8,934 bases of DNA from Pseudomonadota bacterium. GTDB lineage: Bacteria; Desulfobacterota; Desulfobulbia; Desulfobulbales; Desulfobulbaceae. The position numbers were made by a program, and so were the translations under genes. Positions 1,203 to 8,934 of the stretch are shown here, one piece after another (position 1 is the stretch's first letter; the number at the start of each line of letters is the position of its first letter). The stretch spans positions 1 to 8,934 of the forward strand of contig WQUH01000263.1 in NCBI GenBank assembly GCA_009782165.1, given 5' to 3'. The notes under the pieces were generated by a model that made no database searches, was not told the DNA's origin, and worked only from the letters and a program-made list of their open reading frames with translations.

Positions 1203-1219
1203 TGTGGCAAAACGACACA
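1203..1219 (+). promoter_or_regulatory. Putative activator-binding site (UAS), copy 1
   Basis: TGTGGCAAAACGACACA is an imperfect dyad with half-sites TGTGGC and GACACA around a 5-bp centre. It matches 14 of 17 bases of the element at 6824-6840. It lies 112 bp upstream of the GG of the -24 element, a normal distance for an NtrC-type enhancer site. GGCAAAAC recurs 18 bp downstream (1225-1232), which may be a partial second site. The response regulator encoded at 5321-6760 is the natural candidate to bind it (inference). Confidence 0.65.
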
Positions 1220-1262
1220 GGCGCGGCAAAACACTCCCAGAAATTCTTTTTTTGCCCGGAAA

Positions 1263-1281
1263 ATGAGGCGTTTCGCCGCAT
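1263..1281 (+). promoter_or_regulatory. Second conserved dyad in the regulatory module, copy 1
   Basis: ATGAGGCGTTTCGCCGCAT has arms ATG.GGCG and CGCC.CAT around TTT. It agrees with 6883-6901 at 16 of 19 positions and lies 50 bp upstream of the -24 GG. It may be a second regulator site. What binds it cannot be told from the sequence. Confidence 0.5.
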
Positions 1282-1300
1282 CCTTTTTGTATTTCATCTT

Positions 1301-1313
1301 TAACTACATGATA
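1301..1313 (+). promoter_or_regulatory. IHF-like site, copy 1
   Basis: TAACTACATGATA matches the reverse-complement IHF consensus YAAN4TTGATW with one mismatch. It sits between the enhancer dyad and the -24 element, where IHF usually bends DNA at sigma-54 promoters. An A-rich tract follows. A diverged counterpart lies at the same relative place in copy 2. Confidence 0.45.
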
Positions 1314-1331
1314 ATATTAAATAAAAAAAAC

Positions 1332-1345
1332 GGCATAGCTTTTGC
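1332..1345 (+). promoter_or_regulatory. Sigma-54 promoter (-24/-12) of alcohol dehydrogenase
   Basis: GGCATAGCTTTTGC has the invariant GG-N10-GC layout and resembles the TGGCAC-N5-TTGCA consensus. The 17 nt from 1332 to 1348 are identical to 6950-6966 upstream of the aldehyde oxidoreductase. The start site should fall near 1357, giving a leader of about 70 nt before the ATG at 1429. Activation would need an AAA+ enhancer-binding protein, and one is encoded at 5321-6760. Confidence 0.85.
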
Positions 1346-1428
1346 TTTAGACGCTATATACCGGGATAGGAAATGGTTCATGTTCCGGTCGTGCAATACA
1401 GCGCAACTTTTTACTACAGGAGGTTTAT

Positions 1429-2610
1429 ATGGCTCGTATCGAACAGGTTTTTGGATTTTTTATGCCTTCCATCACCCTTATCGGTTATGGCGCGGCCAAA
1501 GAAATCCCTGCCCGCATCAAAGCGCTGGGCGCCAAAAAACCCCTGATCGTCACCGACCAGGGTATCGTCAAAAGCGGCATTCTTGCCACGGTGGAGGGCT
1601 ATCTCAAAGAGCAAAAGATGGCCTACGCCGTTTATGCCGATACCGTCCCCAACCCCACGGATGAGAACGTGCATAAGGGTGTTGATGTCTACAAAAAGCA
1701 TAACTGTGACGCGCTGATCACCCTGGGCGGCGGCAGCTCCCACGACTGCGGCAAGGGCATCGGTCTGGTGGTCGCCAATGGCGGCAAAATCCATGACTTT
1801 GAAGGCGTGGACAAATCCACCAAGCCCTTTGTCCCCTATCTGGCAGTGAACACCACCGCTGGTACGGCGTCGGAGATGACTCGTTTCTGCATTATCACCG
1901 ACCTGTCCCGCCATGTGAAGATGGCTATTGTCGACTGGCGCTGTACCCCCAATATCGCCATCGACGACCCGGCGCTCATGCTGGGCATGCCACCGGCGCT
2001 GACCGCGGCCACCGGTATGGACGCCCTGACCCATGCAGTCGAGGCCTATGTGTCCACCGCTGCCACCCCGATGACCGATGCCAGCGCTGAAAAGTGCATC
2101 TGGCTGGTCGGCAAATACCTGCGCAAGGCGGTTGCCTTGGGCAGCGATGCCGAGGCCCGCGAAATGATGGCCCATGCCCAATATCTGGGCGGCATGGCCT
2201 TCAATAACGCCAGCCTCGGCTATGTGCATGCCATGGCGCACCAGTTGGGCGGCTTCTACGACCTGCCGCACGGCGAGTGCAACGCCATCCTGCTGCCCTA
2301 TGTCTCCGAGTTCAATATCAACGCAAAAATGGAGCGTTTCGCCAAAATTGCCGAGTTGCTGGGCGAGTGCACCTGCGGCAAGAGTGAACGCGAGGCGGCC
2401 TATATGGCAATTGACGCCATCCGCAAGCTCTCGGCGGATGTCAGCATCCCCGCCGGCCTGAAAGCGCTTGGCAAGCGCTATGGCAAAAACGTACAGGAAA
2501 AAGATGTCGCGGTCATGACCGGCAATGCGCAGAAAGATGCCTGTATGCTCACCAACCCGCGTTCGGCGACCGATCCGCAGGTGACCGCACTGTATATGGC
2601 CGCCATGTGA
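1429..2610 (+). CDS. Iron-containing (class III) alcohol dehydrogenase
   Basis: A 393-residue cytoplasmic enzyme expected to oxidise a primary alcohol to its aldehyde with NAD(P)+, or the reverse. The N-terminal nucleotide domain contains GGGSSHDCGKG (about 100-110) and TTAGTASE (142-149). The C-terminal helical domain carries the metal ligands D198, H202, H267 and H281, in the contexts GMDALTHAVEAY, GYVHAMAHQLGG and LPHGECNA, matching the four FucO ligands; H271 is also kept. The length is normal. AGGAGG at 1418-1423, five bases before the ATG, fixes the start. The gene has its own sigma-54 promoter and is closed by a terminator at 2716-2747, so it is probably monocistronic. Ethanol or a related short alcohol or diol is the likely substrate, given the aldehyde oxidoreductase under the same type of control. 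Substrate and metal are inferred from the family. Confidence 0.95.
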   Translation: MARIEQVFGFFMPSITLIGYGAAKEIPARIKALGAKKPLIVTDQGIVKSGILATVEGYLKEQKMAYAVYADTVPNPTDENVHKGVDVYKKHNCDALITLGGGSSHDCGKGIGLVVANGGKIHDFEGVDKSTKPFVPYLAVNTTAGTASEMTRFCIITDLSRHVKMAIVDWRCTPNIAIDDPALMLGMPPALTAATGMDALTHAVEAYVSTAATPMTDASAEKCIWLVGKYLRKAVALGSDAEAREMMAHAQYLGGMAFNNASLGYVHAMAHQLGGFYDLPHGECNAILLPYVSEFNINAKMERFAKIAELLGECTCGKSEREAAYMAIDAIRKLSADVSIPAGLKALGKRYGKNVQEKDVAVMTGNAQKDACMLTNPRSATDPQVTALYMAAM

Positions 2611-2654
2611 TTTTTACAGAAGCGGTTTGTGAAAGACCCCATTAACGTGGGAAA

Positions 2655-2689
2655 AAGGCCCTTCGGGAATTTGCCGCCTGAAGGGCCTT
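2655..2689 (+). other. Perfect inverted repeat after the alcohol dehydrogenase gene
   Basis: AAGGCCCTTC (2655-2664) and GAAGGGCCTT (2680-2689) form a perfect 10-bp stem with a 15-nt loop, 45 nt after the stop codon. No T-tract follows, so it is not a classical terminator. It may protect the 3' end of the message or assist the terminator just downstream. Confidence 0.7.
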
Positions 2690-2715
2690 GCCGGGTAAGG
2701 ATTTCCGGCGTGATA

Positions 2716-2747
2716 AAGCCGTCGCATTTTTGCGGCGGCTTGTTTTT
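2716..2747 (+). terminator. Rho-independent terminator after alcohol dehydrogenase
   Basis: AAGCCGTCGCA (2716-2726) pairs with TGCGGCGGCTT (2731-2741), one G-U pair, around a TTTT loop, followed by GTTTTT. It separates the sigma-54-driven dehydrogenase from the downstream regulatory operon. Confidence 0.88.
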
Positions 2748-2768
2748 GCAGGTACGTTTTATTATATT
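2740..2768 (+). promoter_or_regulatory. Candidate sigma-70 promoter of the ErcA-like/kinase/regulator operon
   Basis: TTGTTT (2740-2745) and TATATT (2763-2768) are 17 bp apart. The -35 box overlaps the end of the preceding terminator. It leaves an untranslated leader of about 85 nt that contains a GCAGGC/GCCTGC hairpin. Basal transcription from a housekeeping promoter would suit a sensor operon, but the call rests only on box matches. Confidence 0.5.
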
Positions 2769-2859
2769 ACGGCAGGCTTTTTGGCCGCCTGCGAGCCGCG
2801 CTTCGCGCTCCACGGCAAGAAAAGAGTGAAGGCGGGGGAAAAAATAGCAGGAGCCAGGT

Positions 2860-4008
2860 TTGACGATTCGTGTCACCAAATTTGCCATTCCGGAGATCCT
2901 CTTTGGCCGAGGAAGTGTGCAGCATCTCGTATCCTGCGCGCGCGGACTTGGGGCAAAGAACGTATTCCTGGTCAGTGACGCTGGCTTGGAAGAGGCGGGG
3001 TGGCTGAGCAAACTCAGGAAGATGATCCATGCGGCCGGGCTGGCTTGTGTCGAATTCTGCGATGTAACCGCCAATCCGCGCGATTTTCAGGTGCATAAGG
3101 GGGCGCAGCTTTACAGCTCCTCTGAGGCGGATGTCATCATCGCCCTGGGGGGTGGCAGTCCTATGGACGCCGCCAAGGGTATCGGCATTGTGGCCAGTAA
3201 TGGGCGTACCATTGCCGACTATGAAGGGGCGAACCGCATCGAGCGGCCCCTGCCGCCCATGATCTTTCTCCCCACCACGGCTGGCAGTGGTTCGGACCTC
3301 TCACAGTTCTGCATCATCACCGACGTGCGGCGCAAGCTGAAGATGTCAATCATCAGCCGCTCGCTTGTCCCGAATATTTCCATTATCGATCCGGATTTTC
3401 TGGTAACCAAGAGCGTCTCCCTGATTGTGGATTCGGCCATTGACGCCCTGGCGCACGCCGTTGAATCGTTTGTCTCCATCGCCGCTTCGCCTTTTTCTGA
3501 AAACCAGGCCCGCCTCGCCCTCTGCCTTTGGCGCGATAACATTGACGAGGCCGCGAGAAACCGTTCCAGCACCGCCCTGGAAAATCTGAGCCTGGTGGGC
3601 GCGGCGGCGGCTATGTCGTTTAGCAACGCCGGCCTCGGCGTCGGTCATGCCTTGGCCCATGCCCTGGGGGGCCGTCTGGACCTCCGGCACGGCATGATGC
3701 ATTCCATCCTGTTGCCCGCGGTTATGCGCTACAACAGAAGCCATTGCCTGCCCAAACTTCGCGAAGTGATGCACACCCTCTACCCAACCCGTGATTTCCA
3801 TAACGAACAGGATCTCCTCGAGGGTGTTCACTCCTTAGAAAGGCATTTTGAGGACTTGGGCGTGCCTGTGCGGCTGCACTCGGTACTTCCTGATAAAGAA
3901 TGTTTACCTGAAGTCTGTGAGGCCGCGGCCAACGATGTCTGCATGCTCACCAATCCGCGCCAAGCCACGGTCGAGGATCTGCTGGCTATCTGTAACGAGG
4001 CGTGGTGA
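2860..4008 (+). CDS. ercA: ErcA-like iron-containing alcohol dehydrogenase homologue, probably regulatory
   Basis: A 382-residue class III dehydrogenase paralogue of the protein at 1429-2610. It has the nucleotide-binding GGGSPMDAAKG (about 97-107), PTTAGSGSDLSQF (138-150), and all four metal ligands: D195, H199, H263 and H277. It starts with TTG, supported by CAGGAG (2848-2853) six bases upstream. The NPRD, GGGSPMDAAKGIGIV and TTAGSGSDLSQFCII segments resemble ErcA, an alcohol dehydrogenase-like protein linked to regulation of ethanol oxidation in Pseudomonas aeruginosa. The resemblance is from memory, not alignment. Its stop codon overlaps the start of a histidine kinase gene (TGATG), so the two are translationally coupled. 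A sensing or signal-generating role is therefore plausible, for example making the aldehyde or changing the NADH level the kinase perceives. With ligands intact it may equally be a working dehydrogenase; the gene symbol is tentative. Confidence 0.85.
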   Translation: MTIRVTKFAIPEILFGRGSVQHLVSCARGLGAKNVFLVSDAGLEEAGWLSKLRKMIHAAGLACVEFCDVTANPRDFQVHKGAQLYSSSEADVIIALGGGSPMDAAKGIGIVASNGRTIADYEGANRIERPLPPMIFLPTTAGSGSDLSQFCIITDVRRKLKMSIISRSLVPNISIIDPDFLVTKSVSLIVDSAIDALAHAVESFVSIAASPFSENQARLALCLWRDNIDEAARNRSSTALENLSLVGAAAAMSFSNAGLGVGHALAHALGGRLDLRHGMMHSILLPAVMRYNRSHCLPKLREVMHTLYPTRDFHNEQDLLEGVHSLERHFEDLGVPVRLHSVLPDKECLPEVCEAAANDVCMLTNPRQATVEDLLAICNEAW

Positions 4009-5264
4009 TGGCGGAAGAGCTGAAAGAAAATCTTGTTTACAGCATTCTTGGCATCAAACAGACCAAGCTAGGCTTTTTCCAGGAATGGCAGCGCAACCTA
4101 CGGGCCCTTAAACTGGCCCATCAGGAATCCGAGCGCCAGCGCCTGGCTAATACCGCTATCCTGGAGGGTATTACCGATGTCATGATGGTGTTGGATAAGG
4201 ACATGCGCATCCTTTCCGTCAACCGGGTGATGGAAAACCTCTTCCCCGGCCGGAACTGTGTGGGGGAATACTGCTACCGGCTCTTCGCCAACGCCGCCGG
4301 TCCCTGTCCGGAATGCCCGGCCTTTTCTTCGCTGCTGCGCCAGACCGTGAACCGGGGAAGCGCCATCTTTCAGATCGGCGGCGGAAACCGGCATTTTGAC
4401 ATGGTGGCCTCACCCCTGCCGGAACAACCCGGGAGCGGCAAGACTGTCCTGATGTTCAAACGTGATGTCACCAAGGAAAAGGCTTTGCAGGCGCAGATCT
4501 ATCAGGCGGAGAAAATGGCTTCCATTGGAATGCTGGCCGCCGGCGTCGCCCATGAAATCAATAATCCCCTGACCGCCATCACCGGATTTGCCGAGGGTAT
4601 CCGGCGCCGCATTCCCCAGCTCATGAAAAACGCCCCGCCCGAATTCGTGGCGGATCTGGAAGAATATTCCAGTATTATTCTGCAAGAATCCAGCCGCTGC
4701 CGCGACATCGTCCAGGCCCTGGTCAACTTCAGCCGGTCCCAGCCCTCGAAAAAAGCCGTGTGCCTGCCCGCCATGATTGAAGAAACCTTTTCACTTTTGC
4801 GGCACAGCATCAAGCAATTCAAGGGGATTGTCATCCGGCTGGAGCTGGACCGGGACATGCCCGATGTTTGGCTGGACGATACTCAGGTGCGCCAGGTGGT
4901 ACTCAATCTGGTCACCAATGCCCTCGACGCGCTGACGATCAGTCCTAACGGAGAAGAAATCAAGGACCCGCAAGGGAGTATCGTTATCCGAACGATGCGG
5001 GAAACCGGCTCGGTGATCCTGCAGGTGGAGGACAGCGGCGCGGGCATCGAGCCTCGGCATCTGCGTATGGCCTTCGATCCTTTTTTTACCACCAAGGCCA
5101 AAGGGCTGGGCCTCGGGCTTACCATCTCCTATAGCGTGGTCAAGGCCCATGGCGGCGACATCAGACTGATGCGTACCCCCCAGGGAACAACGAAGGTCAC
5201 GGTCAGCCTGCCGCTGCAGGACACTGACGTCGTTGTGCCAGTAAGTGAGGCTGTTGGGGACTAA
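4008..5264 (+). CDS. Soluble PAS-domain sensor histidine kinase
   Basis: A 418-residue protein without membrane segments or signal peptide, so it senses a cytoplasmic cue. After a short N-terminal helical stretch comes a PAS domain (about 49-155) with a cysteine group: C84, C89, C100 and C103, the last two as GPCPECP. The dimerisation/phosphoacceptor domain holds H182 in the box GVAHEINNPLTAI. The ATP-binding domain shows the N box (N304 in LVTNALDAL), the G1 box EDSGAGI (341-347), FFTTK (359-363) and the G2 box GLGLG (366-370). ATG 4008 overlaps the ErcA-like stop and lies seven bases after GAGG; the upstream GTG codons at 4002 and 4005 sit too close to that ribosome binding site. It is a NtrB/ZraS-type kinase and the likely partner of the response regulator 56 nt downstream. 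The ligand is unknown. Confidence 0.93.
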   Translation: MAEELKENLVYSILGIKQTKLGFFQEWQRNLRALKLAHQESERQRLANTAILEGITDVMMVLDKDMRILSVNRVMENLFPGRNCVGEYCYRLFANAAGPCPECPAFSSLLRQTVNRGSAIFQIGGGNRHFDMVASPLPEQPGSGKTVLMFKRDVTKEKALQAQIYQAEKMASIGMLAAGVAHEINNPLTAITGFAEGIRRRIPQLMKNAPPEFVADLEEYSSIILQESSRCRDIVQALVNFSRSQPSKKAVCLPAMIEETFSLLRHSIKQFKGIVIRLELDRDMPDVWLDDTQVRQVVLNLVTNALDALTISPNGEEIKDPQGSIVIRTMRETGSVILQVEDSGAGIEPRHLRMAFDPFFTTKAKGLGLGLTISYSVVKAHGGDIRLMRTPQGTTKVTVSLPLQDTDVVVPVSEAVGD

Positions 5265-5320
5265 AAGCTATTTTCTCCATTTTTGTAAGACCTTGAAACA
5301 ACGGCAACGATAAACGTTTC

Positions 5321-6760
5321 ATGCAATCCGACTATTATTCCATCCTGGTTGTGGATGATGAGGACTCCATCCGCCGCCTGTTGCAGAAAGAGCTGGCCTC
5401 GCCGCGCCGCCGTATCCATACCGCCGCCTCGGCCACCGAGGGTCTGCGCCTCTGCCACCAGGAGAGCTTCGAAGTTATTTTGCTGGATATCCGCCTGGAT
5501 GACGGCAACGGCCTCGATCTGCTCCCCGATTTCCTCCGCCTTTTGCCCGACGCCAAGATCATTATGATTACCGGCTATGCCGACCTGGACGGCGCGGTCA
5601 CGGCCATGCGCAATGGGGCCTATGACTTTGTGGCCAAGCCTTTCACCTTAAGCAAACTGGAGCTTATCGTCGAACGGGCCTTCGAACATACTTCCCTCGC
5701 CTGTGAAAACCGCAGCCTGCGTCTGGCCTCCGGCAACAAGGAGCATGCGCTTGTCGGCAACAGCCTGGCCATGCGCGACTTAGTTTTTCTGTTGAAAAAG
5801 GTGGGGCCGACGGATGTCCCGGTGCTGATCACGGGGGAATCCGGCACCGGCAAGGATGTGGTGGCGGCGGAGATTCACCGGGCCAGCGCCCGCCGCACCC
5901 GGCCTTTTGTGGTGAAAAACTGCGCCGGTCTGCAGAAGGAGCTGGCGCGCAGCGAGTTGTTCGGTCATGTGAAAGGCTCGTTTACCAATGCGCTGGAGTC
6001 CACCGAGGGCTTGATGACCTTTGCCAACCGGGGTACGCTTTTTTTGGATGAGGTGGGCGAACTACCCCTCGAGGTGCAAGCCCTGCTGTTGCGGGTGCTG
6101 GAAAACCAGCGTTACCGCCGGGTGGGTGAAAAGGACGAGCGCAACGCCAATGTGCGTTTTCTCTTCGCCACGAATCGCAATCTGGCCGACGAGGTGCAGC
6201 GGGGCAATTTCCATGAAGCCCTGTACCACCGCATCAATGTCTTTCAGATCAGCCTGCCCGCCTTGAAAGAACGGCGGGAGGACATCCCCCTGCTGGTAGC
6301 CCACTTTCTTGCCCAGCTCGGCGGGGACAGGGCGCGTTACAGCATCTCTCCCGAGGCCATGAATTGTCTGATGCATTATCATTGGCCGGGTAATGTCCGG
6401 GAATTGCGCAATGTCATTGAACGTGGCCTGATCCTGGCTGAAAACAATATTATTTCCGAAAAAACCCTGCCCCGTGACCTGGTGGAGTCCGTAGCGGGAT
6501 CTGTATCGCGCCCCGCCCCATCTTTGGCGCCGGCAACGACACCATCCGATGGGAGAAAAAAGCTGCTGCCCGCTTCCAGGAGAAAGATCGGCGGAGAATC
6601 CATGCTTCCTGGCGTTTCTCTGCTGCTGGACGATGTGGAGCGCGGTCATATTGCTCAGGTACTGGCCATGTTCGGCGGCAACAAGCAAAAGGTCGCCAAG
6701 GCCCTTGGCATAGCGCGTAAGACGTTATACCGGCGGCTGAAAACCATGGGGCTTGAATAA
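5321..6760 (+). CDS. Sigma-54-dependent response regulator (NtrC family)
   Basis: A 479-residue activator with the standard three parts. The receiver domain (about 6-120) has acidic residues D12 and D13, phosphoacceptor D56, T84 and K106. The AAA+ domain (about 142-385) has Walker A GESGTGKD (172-179), Walker B TLFLDE (239-244) and WPGNVREL (355-362). A linker rich in S, P and A (about 390-425) leads to a Fis-type helix-turn-helix (about 435-478). The sigma-54 contact loop reads GSFTNA (219-224) rather than GAFTGA, and the arginine-finger region reads FHEALYHR (297-304), with histidine in place of the first of two usual arginines while R304 is kept. The ATG has no clear ribosome binding site. 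It is probably phosphorylated by the upstream kinase and likely acts at the dyads near 1203 and 6824. Confidence 0.95.
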   Translation: MQSDYYSILVVDDEDSIRRLLQKELASPRRRIHTAASATEGLRLCHQESFEVILLDIRLDDGNGLDLLPDFLRLLPDAKIIMITGYADLDGAVTAMRNGAYDFVAKPFTLSKLELIVERAFEHTSLACENRSLRLASGNKEHALVGNSLAMRDLVFLLKKVGPTDVPVLITGESGTGKDVVAAEIHRASARRTRPFVVKNCAGLQKELARSELFGHVKGSFTNALESTEGLMTFANRGTLFLDEVGELPLEVQALLLRVLENQRYRRVGEKDERNANVRFLFATNRNLADEVQRGNFHEALYHRINVFQISLPALKERREDIPLLVAHFLAQLGGDRARYSISPEAMNCLMHYHWPGNVRELRNVIERGLILAENNIISEKTLPRDLVESVAGSVSRPAPSLAPATTPSDGRKKLLPASRRKIGGESMLPGVSLLLDDVERGHIAQVLAMFGGNKQKVAKALGIARKTLYRRLKTMGLE

Positions 6761-6823
6761 AAAGCGGATTGCATTTTTCCTAGAAACGGAAGAGAAAACA
6801 TCCTTCTCGATTAGGTAGATCTG

Positions 6824-6840
6824 TGTAGCAAAGTGACACA
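6824..6840 (+). promoter_or_regulatory. Putative activator-binding site (UAS), copy 2
   Basis: TGTAGCAAAGTGACACA matches the site at 1203-1219 in 14 of 17 bases, and the GACACA half-site is identical. In this copy the flank gives a slightly longer dyad, CTGTGT...ACACAG. Binding by the adjacent response regulator is inferred. Confidence 0.65.
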
Positions 6841-6882
6841 GGAACGTTTGACTACACCGGTAAAACGCTTTTTGCCCAAAAA

Positions 6883-6901
6883 ATGGGGCGGTTTGCCGCA
6901 T
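6883..6901 (+). promoter_or_regulatory. Second conserved dyad in the regulatory module, copy 2
   Basis: ATGGGGCGGTTTGCCGCAT agrees with 1263-1281 in 16 of 19 bases and lies 48 bp upstream of the -24 GG. The outer ATG/CAT and the GGC/GCC arms are kept. No binding protein can be named. Confidence 0.5.
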
Positions 6902-6919
6902 CTTTTTTTCTACCTTCTT

Positions 6920-6932
6920 TAACGTATTAATA
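6920..6932 (+). promoter_or_regulatory. IHF-like site, copy 2
   Basis: TAACGTATTAATA matches YAAN4TTGATW with one mismatch. It lies 17 bp before the -24 GG, against 18 bp in copy 1, and an A-tract follows. The matching position in two diverged modules supports a real architectural site. Confidence 0.45.
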
Positions 6933-6949
6933 ATGCTAAAAAAAATCCA

Positions 6950-6963
6950 GGCATAGCTTTTGC
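6950..6963 (+). promoter_or_regulatory. Sigma-54 promoter (-24/-12) of aldehyde:ferredoxin oxidoreductase
   Basis: GGCATAGCTTTTGC again gives GG-N10-GC and is identical to the core at 1332-1345, including three further T bases. The start site should be near 6975, which leaves about 250 nt of leader before the ATG at 7227. Confidence 0.85.
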
Positions 6964-6974
6964 TTTGCTTTCCA

Positions 6975-7226
6975 TACTTGATGGGCGCTGAAATTACGGT
7001 ATGGATACCCGTTTATACGCATTTGGCAATCTCGTCAATTTTGCCGGAGGAGGATAATTTCCCTGAAAAACAGGAGGTGATTGGCAATACGAGGGTATTG
7101 TGCTAACTTTTCAAACAATCCGTTGTACTACTGCCGATCTTCGCTTCAGGATCGATACCGCCGACAAGTACCGGCGCAATGTCCCGAGGGAGCCCGGCGC
7201 CTCATTCTTACTATCTGGAGGATGAA
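6975..7226 (+). other. Long structured 5' leader of the aldehyde oxidoreductase mRNA
   Basis: No convincing gene lies here. Visible structure includes CCATAC (6972-6977) complementary to GTATGG (6999-7004), the palindrome GGTATGGATACC (6998-7009), and a hairpin CAATAC/GTATTG (7085-7090 with 7095-7100, GAGG loop) that can be extended to TTGG/CTAA with a bulge. Further on are nested pairs, GTACT/AGTAC enclosing CGATC/GATCG. Two ribosome-binding-site-like sequences, GGAGGAGG (about 7046-7053) and AGGAGGTGA (7072-7080), precede no obvious coding sequence. The real site for the oxidoreductase is GGAGG at 7217-7221. A regulatory or stability role is possible; I do not recognise a known riboswitch. 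Confidence 0.5.
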
Positions 7227-8934
7227 ATGGCTGATAAAATTTTGCGTGTCAACATGTCGGACCTGAGCACCAAGGTCGAAGCGGTACCGGCGGCATGGAT
7301 GGGGCTTGGCGGCCGCGGTCTGACCTCGACCATCGTCGCGGCGGAAGTTGTTCCCACCTGCCACCCGCTCGGGAAGCATAACAAGCTGGTTTTTGCCCCC
7401 GGGCTTCTTTCCGGCACCGCCGCGGCCAACTCCGGCCGCCTTTCCTGCGGCGCTAAAAGTCCGTTGACCGGTACCATCAAAGAAGCGAACGCCGGCGGCA
7501 CCTCGGCGCAGATGCTGGCCAAACTCGGCGTCAAGGCCCTGATTATCGAAGGGAAACCCGCCGACGACTCCGCCTGGTACAGCCTGCATATCGATGCGAA
7601 CGGCGCGACCATCAAAAAAGAAACCGAAGTGATCGGCAAGGGCAACTTTGCCGTGGTCGAGGCGCTGAACAATCGCCTGGGGCCGAAAGTCGGCGTGATC
7701 AGCATCGGCCCGGCCGGCGAGATGCGCATGTCCGGGGCCAACATCTCGGTCAAAGATCCGGAAGGCCATGTACGTTCCCATGGCCGTGGCGGCCTTGGCG
7801 CGGTCATGGGCTCGAAGAAAATCAAGTTCATCTCGATCGAACCCACCGATCAAAAGGTGGAACTCGCCGACGCCGCAGCCTTCCAGGCGGCAAACCGCAT
7901 TTTTACCAAGGCCCTGGCCGAAAACCCCATCAGCAAGGCCCTGGGCCAGTACGGCACCAACGTTCTGGTCAACGTTATCAATGAAGCCGGCGGCCTTCCC
8001 ACCAAAAACTTCACCAAAGGGCAGTTTGAAGGGCATGAGGCCATTTCCGGCGAGACCATGCACGACACCATGGTTGCCCGTGGCGGTAAGCCGAAACACA
8101 ACTGCCATCCGGGTTGCGTTATCCAGTGTTCCCAGATTTATAACGATGCCAAAGGCGCGTACAAAACCTCCGGCTTCGAGTACGAAAGCATCTGGGCTCT
8201 GGGGGCGGACTGCTGCATCGACAACCTTGACCATGTGGCCGAGGCGGATAGCCTGATGGATGATATTGGCCTCGATTCCATCGAGACCGGGGTGGCCTTC
8301 GCTGTCGCCATGGAGGCAGGCGTACTCAAATTCGGCGACGGCGCCGCGCTGTGCCGCATTCTTAAGGAAGATGTGGCCAAAGGAACCCCGCTTGGCCATA
8401 TTATCGGCAATGGCGCGGCTTCCGTCGGCAGGAGCTTCGGCATCACCCGCGTGCCCGTGGTCAAGAATCAGGGGATTCCCGCCTACGACCCGCGCGCCAT
8501 CAAAGGCATCGGCATCACCTACGCCACCTCCACCCAGGGCGCGGATCACACCATGGGATACACCATTGCCACCAACATCCTTGGCGTCGGCGGCAAACTT
8601 GATCCACTGAGCAAGGAAGGCCAGGTCGAACTGTCCCGTAACCTGCAGATCGCCACCGCCGCCATCGACAGCACCGGCATGTGCCTGTTCATCGCCTTTG
8701 CCGCCCTCGACGACGCCACCTGTCTGCCGGCCTTAATCGATATGATCAATGCCCGTTTCGGCATCAAGTTGGTGGCCGACGATGTCACTAACCTGGGCAA
8801 AACCATCCTCAAGACCGAACGCGCCTTCAACCTCGCCGCCGGTTTCACCAACAAGGACGACCGCTTGCCCGAATTCTTCGCCGAAGAGCCGATCGCGCCC
8901 CACAATGTCGTCTGGGATATGACCGACGAGGCCA
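7227..8934 (+). CDS. Aldehyde:ferredoxin oxidoreductase, tungsten-type (3' end beyond window)
   Basis: The frame stays open for 569 codons to the window end. Family members run to about 600 residues, so only a short C-terminal piece is probably missing. The enzyme oxidises aldehydes to carboxylic acids and normally passes electrons to ferredoxin, using a tungsten-bis-pyranopterin and one [4Fe-4S] cluster. Visible features are a GGRGL segment near the N-terminus (28-32), FAPGLLSGTAAANSGR with GAKSPLTG (about 56-82), SHGRGGLGAVMGSKK (184-198), and cluster cysteines C293, C297 and C301 in NCHPGCVIQCS with a distant C486 in DSTGMCLF. The first two cysteines are three residues apart rather than the two of the Pyrococcus enzyme. 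GGAGG at 7217-7221, five bases upstream, supports the ATG. The sigma-54 module ties it to the alcohol dehydrogenase at 1429. Tungsten rather than molybdenum is assumed from the family. Confidence 0.93.
   Translation, partial: MADKILRVNMSDLSTKVEAVPAAWMGLGGRGLTSTIVAAEVVPTCHPLGKHNKLVFAPGLLSGTAAANSGRLSCGAKSPLTGTIKEANAGGTSAQMLAKLGVKALIIEGKPADDSAWYSLHIDANGATIKKETEVIGKGNFAVVEALNNRLGPKVGVISIGPAGEMRMSGANISVKDPEGHVRSHGRGGLGAVMGSKKIKFISIEPTDQKVELADAAAFQAANRIFTKALAENPISKALGQYGTNVLVNVINEAGGLPTKNFTKGQFEGHEAISGETMHDTMVARGGKPKHNCHPGCVIQCSQIYNDAKGAYKTSGFEYESIWALGADCCIDNLDHVAEADSLMDDIGLDSIETGVAFAVAMEAGVLKFGDGAALCRILKEDVAKGTPLGHIIGNGAASVGRSFGITRVPVVKNQGIPAYDPRAIKGIGITYATSTQGADHTMGYTIATNILGVGGKLDPLSKEGQVELSRNLQIATAAIDSTGMCLFIAFAALDDATCLPALIDMINARFGIKLVADDVTNLGKTILKTERAFNLAAGFTNKDDRLPEFFAEEPIAPHNVVWDMTDEA

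Follow-up and report, generated by a model that had tools for sequence, protein, structure and literature searches.

Two copies of a promoter module predicted to place an alcohol dehydrogenase and an aldehyde oxidoreductase under one NtrC-type regulator in a Desulfobulbaceae contig

The window analysed here is a whole stretch of 8,934 nucleotides, contig WQUH01000263.1 (C263) of a Desulfobulbaceae bin of 1.47 Mb that is 57% complete. It encodes an iron-containing alcohol dehydrogenase (Fe-ADH; gene adh), an aldehyde:ferredoxin oxidoreductase (AOR) and, between them, a three-gene unit ending in an NtrC-type response regulator. Two blocks of about 145 bp, at 1203-1348 before adh and at 6824-6966 before AOR, carry the same elements and, judged from their sequence, are diverged versions of a single -24/-12 promoter block that includes the upstream dyads. 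The dyads are predicted to be sites of the regulator encoded at 5321-6760, which would switch on adh and AOR jointly with alcohol; the probability of this is put at roughly three in four. The elements and genes concerned are listed below, the scores in bits referring to a motif derived from relatives of this locus.

1203..1219, forward strand: dyad 1 of module 1, predicted response-regulator site (15.1 bits, rank 1 of 8918)
1263-1281 (motif match 1264..1280), forward strand: dyad 2 of module 1, probable weak second site (1.3 bits, rank 12 in the window)
1332..1348, forward strand: -24/-12 promoter core GGCATAGCTTTTGCTTT of module 1 (GG-N10-GC; exact GGCAYRNNNNTTGCW match)
1429..2610, forward strand: adh, Fe-containing alcohol dehydrogenase (PF00465/PF25137)
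2860..4008, forward strand: ErcA-like homologue of Fe-ADH, predicted to be the sensor (ErcA, NF041833, is its best NCBIfam model; unit context)
4002..5264, forward strand: histidine kinase with PAS_4, no transmembrane segment predicted
5321..6760, forward strand: NtrC-type response regulator (receiver, AAA+ with GSFTNA loop, Fis-type helix-turn-helix)
6824..6840, forward strand: dyad 1 of module 2, predicted response-regulator site (12.6 bits, rank 2 of 8918)
6883-6901 (motif match 6884..6900), forward strand: dyad 2 of module 2 (4.9 bits, rank 5 in the window)
6950..6966, forward strand: -24/-12 promoter core GGCATAGCTTTTGCTTT of module 2 (identical to module 1; exact GGCAYRNNNNTTGCW match)
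7227..8933, forward strand: AOR, aldehyde:ferredoxin oxidoreductase (PF02730/PF01314), running off the window

The two modules agree at 14 of 17 positions in dyad 1, at 16 of 19 in dyad 2 and throughout the 17-nt core. The centre of dyad 1 lies 121 bp before the GG in module 1 and 118 bp in module 2, and that of dyad 2 lies 60 and 58 bp before it. The original prediction, made from the letters of the window, had described this agreement and a spacing that differs by 1-3 bp, both of which are confirmed from the coordinates, and it had proposed aligning the modules: their local alignment scores 85, and the best of 1000 dinucleotide-shuffled pairs 31. Identity is concentrated in the three elements (45/51) and is lower in the remainder (65/114). 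The GG-N10-GC signature with the flanking consensus of sigma-54 promoters is found at both 1332 and 6950, so that transcription by sigma-54 RNA polymerase is predicted for both genes. Exact matches to GGCAYRNNNNTTGCW occur at seven places in the bin, compared with one for the reversed control, and three of the seven are modules 1 and 2 and a third module on another contig.

This third module, on contig C127 of the same bin (L044, 1-5080), stands before an AOR gene that is 93% identical to that of the window and behind a regulator that is 86% identical. Compared with module 2 it again keeps the elements (42/51) better than the remainder (65/113). GC content is 62% in C127 and 56% in the window, other stretches of the bin ranging from 56 to 66%, and C127 either belongs to the same cell, as its second cassette, or is a contig of a near relative that was placed in the bin. 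A 167-position model built from the three modules found no fourth match in the bin; since its matches are its own training sequences, this only shows that no fourth module was found.

The regulator motif was derived by expectation maximisation with a palindrome constraint from 35 adh upstream regions of relatives, the window and C127 being excluded. It converged from several seeds on TG(G/T)GTCATWATGAC(C/A)CA, in short form TG(G/T)GTCA-N3-TGAC(C/A)CA. This motif, to which the window did not contribute, puts dyad 1 of modules 1 and 2 first and second among the 8918 positions of the window. Scores this high would arise, respectively, 0.03 and 0.12 times per shuffled whole window, and 0.0005 and 0.002 times per shuffled copy of their own intergenic region; ranks 3 and 4 (10.1 and 9.0 bits) fall inside AOR. 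Sites of at least 9 bits are present in 35/35 adh regions (the training set), in 32/73 regions before the unit's own ErcA-like gene (outside the training set; one locus is counted twice, L056 = L078) and in 2/14 AOR regions, while shuffled regions contain about 0.03-0.04 sites each. The palindrome accompanies this regulator type in both Desulfobulbales and Desulfovibrionales. Together with the ranking of the dyads, this supports the earlier proposal that both genes are controlled by the regulator encoded between them.

The motif is also found at adh genes far from the unit. A site of at least 9 bits is present in 21 of 27 separate adh upstream regions, a set that includes four of the training regions. 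These include seven (L145-L149, L171 and L176) where adh lies on another contig than the unit or at least 9 kb away. In L145-L149, from Nitratidesulfovibrio and related genomes, a single site is located 209 bp before a GG-N10-GC core, and adh is on a separate contig or about 9.5 kb from the unit; in some cases the break between contigs may conceal this 9.5-kb linkage. The L149 site, TGTGGCATTTCGACCCA, is close to dyad 1 of the window. In the Desulfobulbus genomes G010 and G011, adh and the unit are on different contigs, and sites and core are present (L171, L176). The six regions with no site of at least 9 bits belong to more distant homologues (52-71% identity); siteless controls are L156-L158, which are second adh genes in Solidesulfovibrio and a kin strain, and L180 and L183, while the sixth, L155, comes from a genome that has the unit and is counted as contrary evidence below. 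Matching of a fixed sequence is less informative. Exact GGGTCANNNTGACCC occurs at eight places in six of 23 genomes of the genus, against three for the reversed control, which is too weak for mapping a regulon.

The unit itself is well conserved. When 84,980 species genomes were scanned with seven aligned ErcA-like proteins as the query, 97 pattern matches were obtained, 71 of which encode a relative. The order ErcA-like gene, kinase, regulator is seen in 66 of these 71 loci, the other five reaching a contig end first. The scan was not blind to the unit, since the loci that supplied its query proteins had been located by way of the regulator. The loci belong mostly to Desulfobulbales and Desulfovibrionales, with two in Syntrophobacteraceae, one in Thermodesulfovibrionales and one in Desulfobacula. 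With a limit of 1500 bp, adh lies directly behind the regulator in 30/71 loci, a count that misses the adh of L084 owing to an extra regulator match there; in L062, as in the window, adh immediately precedes the unit, and AOR follows adh in 14/71. The adh of the window is 64-77% identical to the best adh genes in genomes that have this unit. Searches of plasmid records returned 82 records with the regulator DNA as query, none covering 80% of it, and 1874 with the ErcA-like protein, all under 60% identity.

The second Fe-ADH gene of the window is part of the sensor unit, and its stop codon overlaps the ATG of the kinase (TGATG). Its product has PF00465 and PF25137, and scores 383.4 bits with NF041833 (next model 253), below the cut-off of 550, so that it is ErcA-like, not ErcA proper. 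Residues D195, H199, H263 and H277, which we take to be the metal ligands as in FucO-type enzymes, are kept in 74/74 rows of the ErcA-like alignment (one locus twice), as expected of the Fe-ADH superfamily. The ErcA-like and adh types differ in 30 nearly fixed columns, for example H281 in all 74 ErcA-like rows (one locus twice) and N in 33/33 adh rows. No hydrophobic segment is seen in the kinase, whose highest mean over 19 residues is 1.0, which makes a cytoplasmic signal probable. In the regulator PF00072, PF00158 and PF02954 (receiver, Sigma54_activat, Fis-type helix-turn-helix) all score above cut-off. The loop that contacts sigma-54 reads GSFTGA in 47, GAFTGA in 22 and GSFTNA in two of 72 regulators (one locus twice), with one unread; the regulators of the window and of C127 have GSFTNA.

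These components suggest a possible route from alcohol to transcription. The ErcA-like protein might respond in the cytoplasm to alcohol, or to its redox state, and stimulate the soluble kinase, which would phosphorylate the regulator. The regulator would then occupy dyad 1, and dyad 2 less strongly; its AAA+ domain would open sigma-54 RNA polymerase at the GG-N10-GC core, so that a single signal, presumably ethanol or another alcohol, would switch on both steps of ethanol oxidation.

The closest known system is that of DVU2394 in Desulfovibrio vulgaris, described here, like the other published systems, from the available parts of the papers cited. DVU2394 is of NtrC type, as is the window regulator, and it controls an Fe-ADH, as is predicted here: its target is the adh-hdr-flx operon, DVU2405-2397 (PMC3333781). 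Its loop is listed as GSFTGA (PMC4641369). The locus numbers of DVU2405 (Adh1), DVU2403-2399 (Hdr, Flx) and DVU2396 (called Adh2) follow that order (PMC10920352). In Desulfovibrio sp. A2 (L162), adh is followed after about 9.5 kb by the ErcA-like gene, kinase and regulator on one 90,615-bp contig, a layout that parallels DVU2405 ... 2396, 2395, 2394; orthology with D. vulgaris is judged from this layout and the locus numbers. The window unit, standing behind adh, shares with this group the linkage of an ErcA-like/kinase/regulator unit to adh. The first count column of a proteome table, as far as available, gives 2 for DVU2396 and 111 for DVU2405, and the low count of DVU2396 suits a sensor better than the main enzyme. 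In laboratory evolution of D. vulgaris, DVU2394, DVU2395 and DVU2396 were recurrent mutation targets (PMC7439460), as were DVU2394 and DVU2395 in another report on evolved D. vulgaris (PMC8319347), which fits the three acting in one pathway. There are two differences. Firstly, the available parts of PMC3333781 and PMC4641369 report no AOR target, whereas the window has a second module on AOR. Secondly, the published DVU2394 motif is a direct repeat seen only in the Hildenborough and Miyazaki strains (PMC3333781), in contrast to the palindrome common to two orders. A search of open-licence works found neither the palindrome nor an AOR target of a DVU2394-type regulator.

Two other systems share parts of this arrangement. 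In Pseudomonas, ErcA/YiaY is encoded with a hybrid histidine kinase (ErcS, PP_2683), as the Fe-ADH-like protein is encoded with a kinase here; the alcohol-oxidation genes of the ped cluster are repressed when either YiaY or the kinase is lost, by a mechanism left unresolved in the available text (PMC12997753). The Pseudomonas kinase is a hybrid listed as probably membrane-located (PMC12997753), while that of the window is simple, has no membrane segment and is paired with an NtrC-type regulator; the window protein, at 383 bits against the cut-off of 550, also differs from Pseudomonas ErcA proper. In Clostridiales, AdhR (adhA) and AorR (aor-moaD) are predicted to place ADH and AOR genes under sigma-54 control through TGT/ACA dyads, as proposed here. 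The Clostridiales genes have separate activators, whereas in the window one two-component regulator is predicted for both (PMC6615313).

Several observations weigh against joint control by the intervening regulator. No motif site is found in 41/73 ErcA-gene regions. In genome G064, which has the unit, a site is absent before the closest adh homologue (63%, L155); conversely, the adh of G022 (99% complete) has sites and core, and the genome has no close regulator homologue (best E 6e-90). The palindrome differs from the published direct repeat of DVU2394, as described above, and TGT-N10-12-ACA is a common enhancer pattern of sigma-54 activators, among which such dyads are generic (PMC6615313). 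The loop of the regulator reads GSFTNA, in contrast to the usual GAFTGA or GSFTGA (69/72), and adh scores 403.1 bits with the ErcA model, above the 383.4 of the ErcA-like protein, although it fits another model better (485 bits). A terminator-like hairpin lies between adh and the sensor unit:

2716..2741, forward strand: intrinsic-terminator-like hairpin between adh and the sensor unit (11-pair stem, T-rich tail; one found against 0.6 expected in shuffles)

The geometry of the window is also unusual. When sites of at least 7 bits are counted from the best-looking core, 34/35 adh promoters of relatives have a site whose centre falls 153-211 bp upstream of the GG, and 28/35 have pairs of sites spaced by 30-32 bp. 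The window has dyads at about 120 and 59 bp, against the relatives' usual 196/165/63 bp, and the distance of dyad 1 (118-121 bp) is without a counterpart in their adh promoters. Finally, relatives' AOR genes as a rule have no such module, and dyad 2, with only 1.3 and 4.9 bits, may be the site of another protein.

This last point leads to the alternative that survives best, although we consider it rather unlikely: dyad 1 is the regulator site and dyad 2 is bound by a second factor, a repressor or another activator, with the modules integrating two signals. As a palindrome, dyad 2 is more regular than dyad 1 (14 and 12 of 19 positions, compared with 10 of 17); it scores poorly with the regulator motif, and it is kept in C127. 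Against this, its form, TGNGGC-N5-GNCNCA, resembles the L106 site TGGGGCATTTTGTCCCA, and its position, 58-60 bp before the GG, is near that of recognised sites, namely the nearer sites, which lie at 62-73 bp in 11/35 adh regions and, upstream of the ErcA-like gene, at 51-65 bp in 21 separate loci. Given that it occupies the nearer place used by relatives, and is the second-best motif match in each of the two intergenic regions, dyad 2 is probably a weak second site of the same regulator, judged by form and place, and two sites of one regulator are more likely than two different elements.

A second alternative accepts the modules as sigma-54 promoters and has their dyads read by a sigma-54 activator other than the one encoded between them. 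At least 30 matches to related regulators in the bin provide candidates, and the generic dyad form and the case of G022 point the same way. We regard this as improbable: in two orders the motif is found repeatedly at adh genes that neighbour this regulator type, it accompanies adh on separate contigs in unit-bearing genomes, and it precedes the unit's own ErcA-like gene in nearly half of the regions.

The remaining alternative concerns AOR, which has a second candidate promoter region downstream of module 2:

7081..7226, forward strand: AOR leader with TTGGCA, a possible old sigma-70-type -35 element (leader alignment of 10 loci)

The modules would then be a chance or neutral duplication with no joint function, and AOR would use a sigma-70-like promoter of its own, which may also be the case in relatives. 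In favour of this, TTGACA is kept in 8/10 aligned AOR leaders, C127 included, and the AOR of relatives as a rule lacks the module. We consider it very improbable: the window has TTGGCA, no sigma-70-type site passes a consensus scan of 6740-7260, and conservation in both module comparisons sits in the elements and not in the spacers. An Rfam scan at E up to 1 matched only the tRNA, so the AOR leader contains no known riboswitch.

The AOR of the window is 83-87% identical to nine loci of the same genus and is Desulfobulbus-like, one Fundidesulfovibrio AOR (85%) being about as close. A midpoint-rooted tree of the regulator unit (69 rows) has the window and the Desulfovibrionales rows on one side with a support of 0.98, and the branch of the window itself has 0.78. 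Vertical descent of the unit within Desulfobulbales is therefore not favoured. As the unit stands beside Desulfovibrionales and AOR groups with Desulfobulbus, the locus is read as a probable hybrid, with a module copy before AOR. A Desulfovibrionales-like block (module, adh, ercA, kinase, regulator) may have come to lie before a Desulfobulbus-type AOR, and a copy of its module would now stand before AOR, upstream of the older leader; this order of events is conjectural. What is unusual at the window is an AOR with its own module upstream of an older leader. Among relatives, a motif site lies upstream of AOR in 2/14 linked cases and 1/9 genus cases (one locus is in both sets), and none of the site-bearing regions has a clear GG-N10-GC core at the usual distance.

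Two relatives show motif-like sites near AOR. In Desulfobulbus sp. Tol-SR (L113), the interval between adh and AOR has three such sites 19 bp apart, at -289 to -235 upstream of AOR. In L187 two sites, at -333 and -301, are 32 bp apart with no evident -24/-12 core, and are perhaps another link of AOR to this regulator.

On a wider scale, and tentatively, at a little under even odds, sulfate reducers and their kin may use a three-protein alcohol switch with a moonlighting ADH as the sensor. At this locus the switch may have captured a resident AOR through a copy of the promoter block, exchanging sigma-70 for sigma-54 and bringing both ethanol steps under one signal. The analysis provides a concrete motif and promoter geometry, common to two orders, for a family whose published motif covers two strains in the available text (PMC3333781). 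It also names an ADH-like protein as the likely alcohol sensor in sulfate reducers, a point that is open for Pseudomonas ErcA/YiaY too (PMC12997753). Moreover, the locus is a plausible case of regulatory capture through promoter copying, with the older AOR leader still present.

One element of the original prediction, an IHF-like site shared by the modules, was dropped. Both modules have a loose IHF-like match (WATCAA-N4-TTR) at 8/9 consensus positions, which is not above chance, since shuffled versions of these stretches reach 8/9 in 31% and 11% of cases; the best match in C127 is 7/9, at a different place, and 53% of shuffles reach that.

The left end of the window carries minor features, all on the reverse strand. 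A tRNA-Gly(CCC) gene is located at 2-76. Directly before module 1, at 850-1200, is a fragment like the C-terminal part of a tyrosine recombinase (PF00589 at E 0.005, under the cut-off; 29-37% identity to frames of 370-427 aa in four relatives), and the two together are a possible remnant of an integrated element. Between them an HTH_3 protein (189-542) adjoins a 92-aa frame (511-789) with no Pfam match, a pair whose arrangement looks like a toxin-antitoxin layout.

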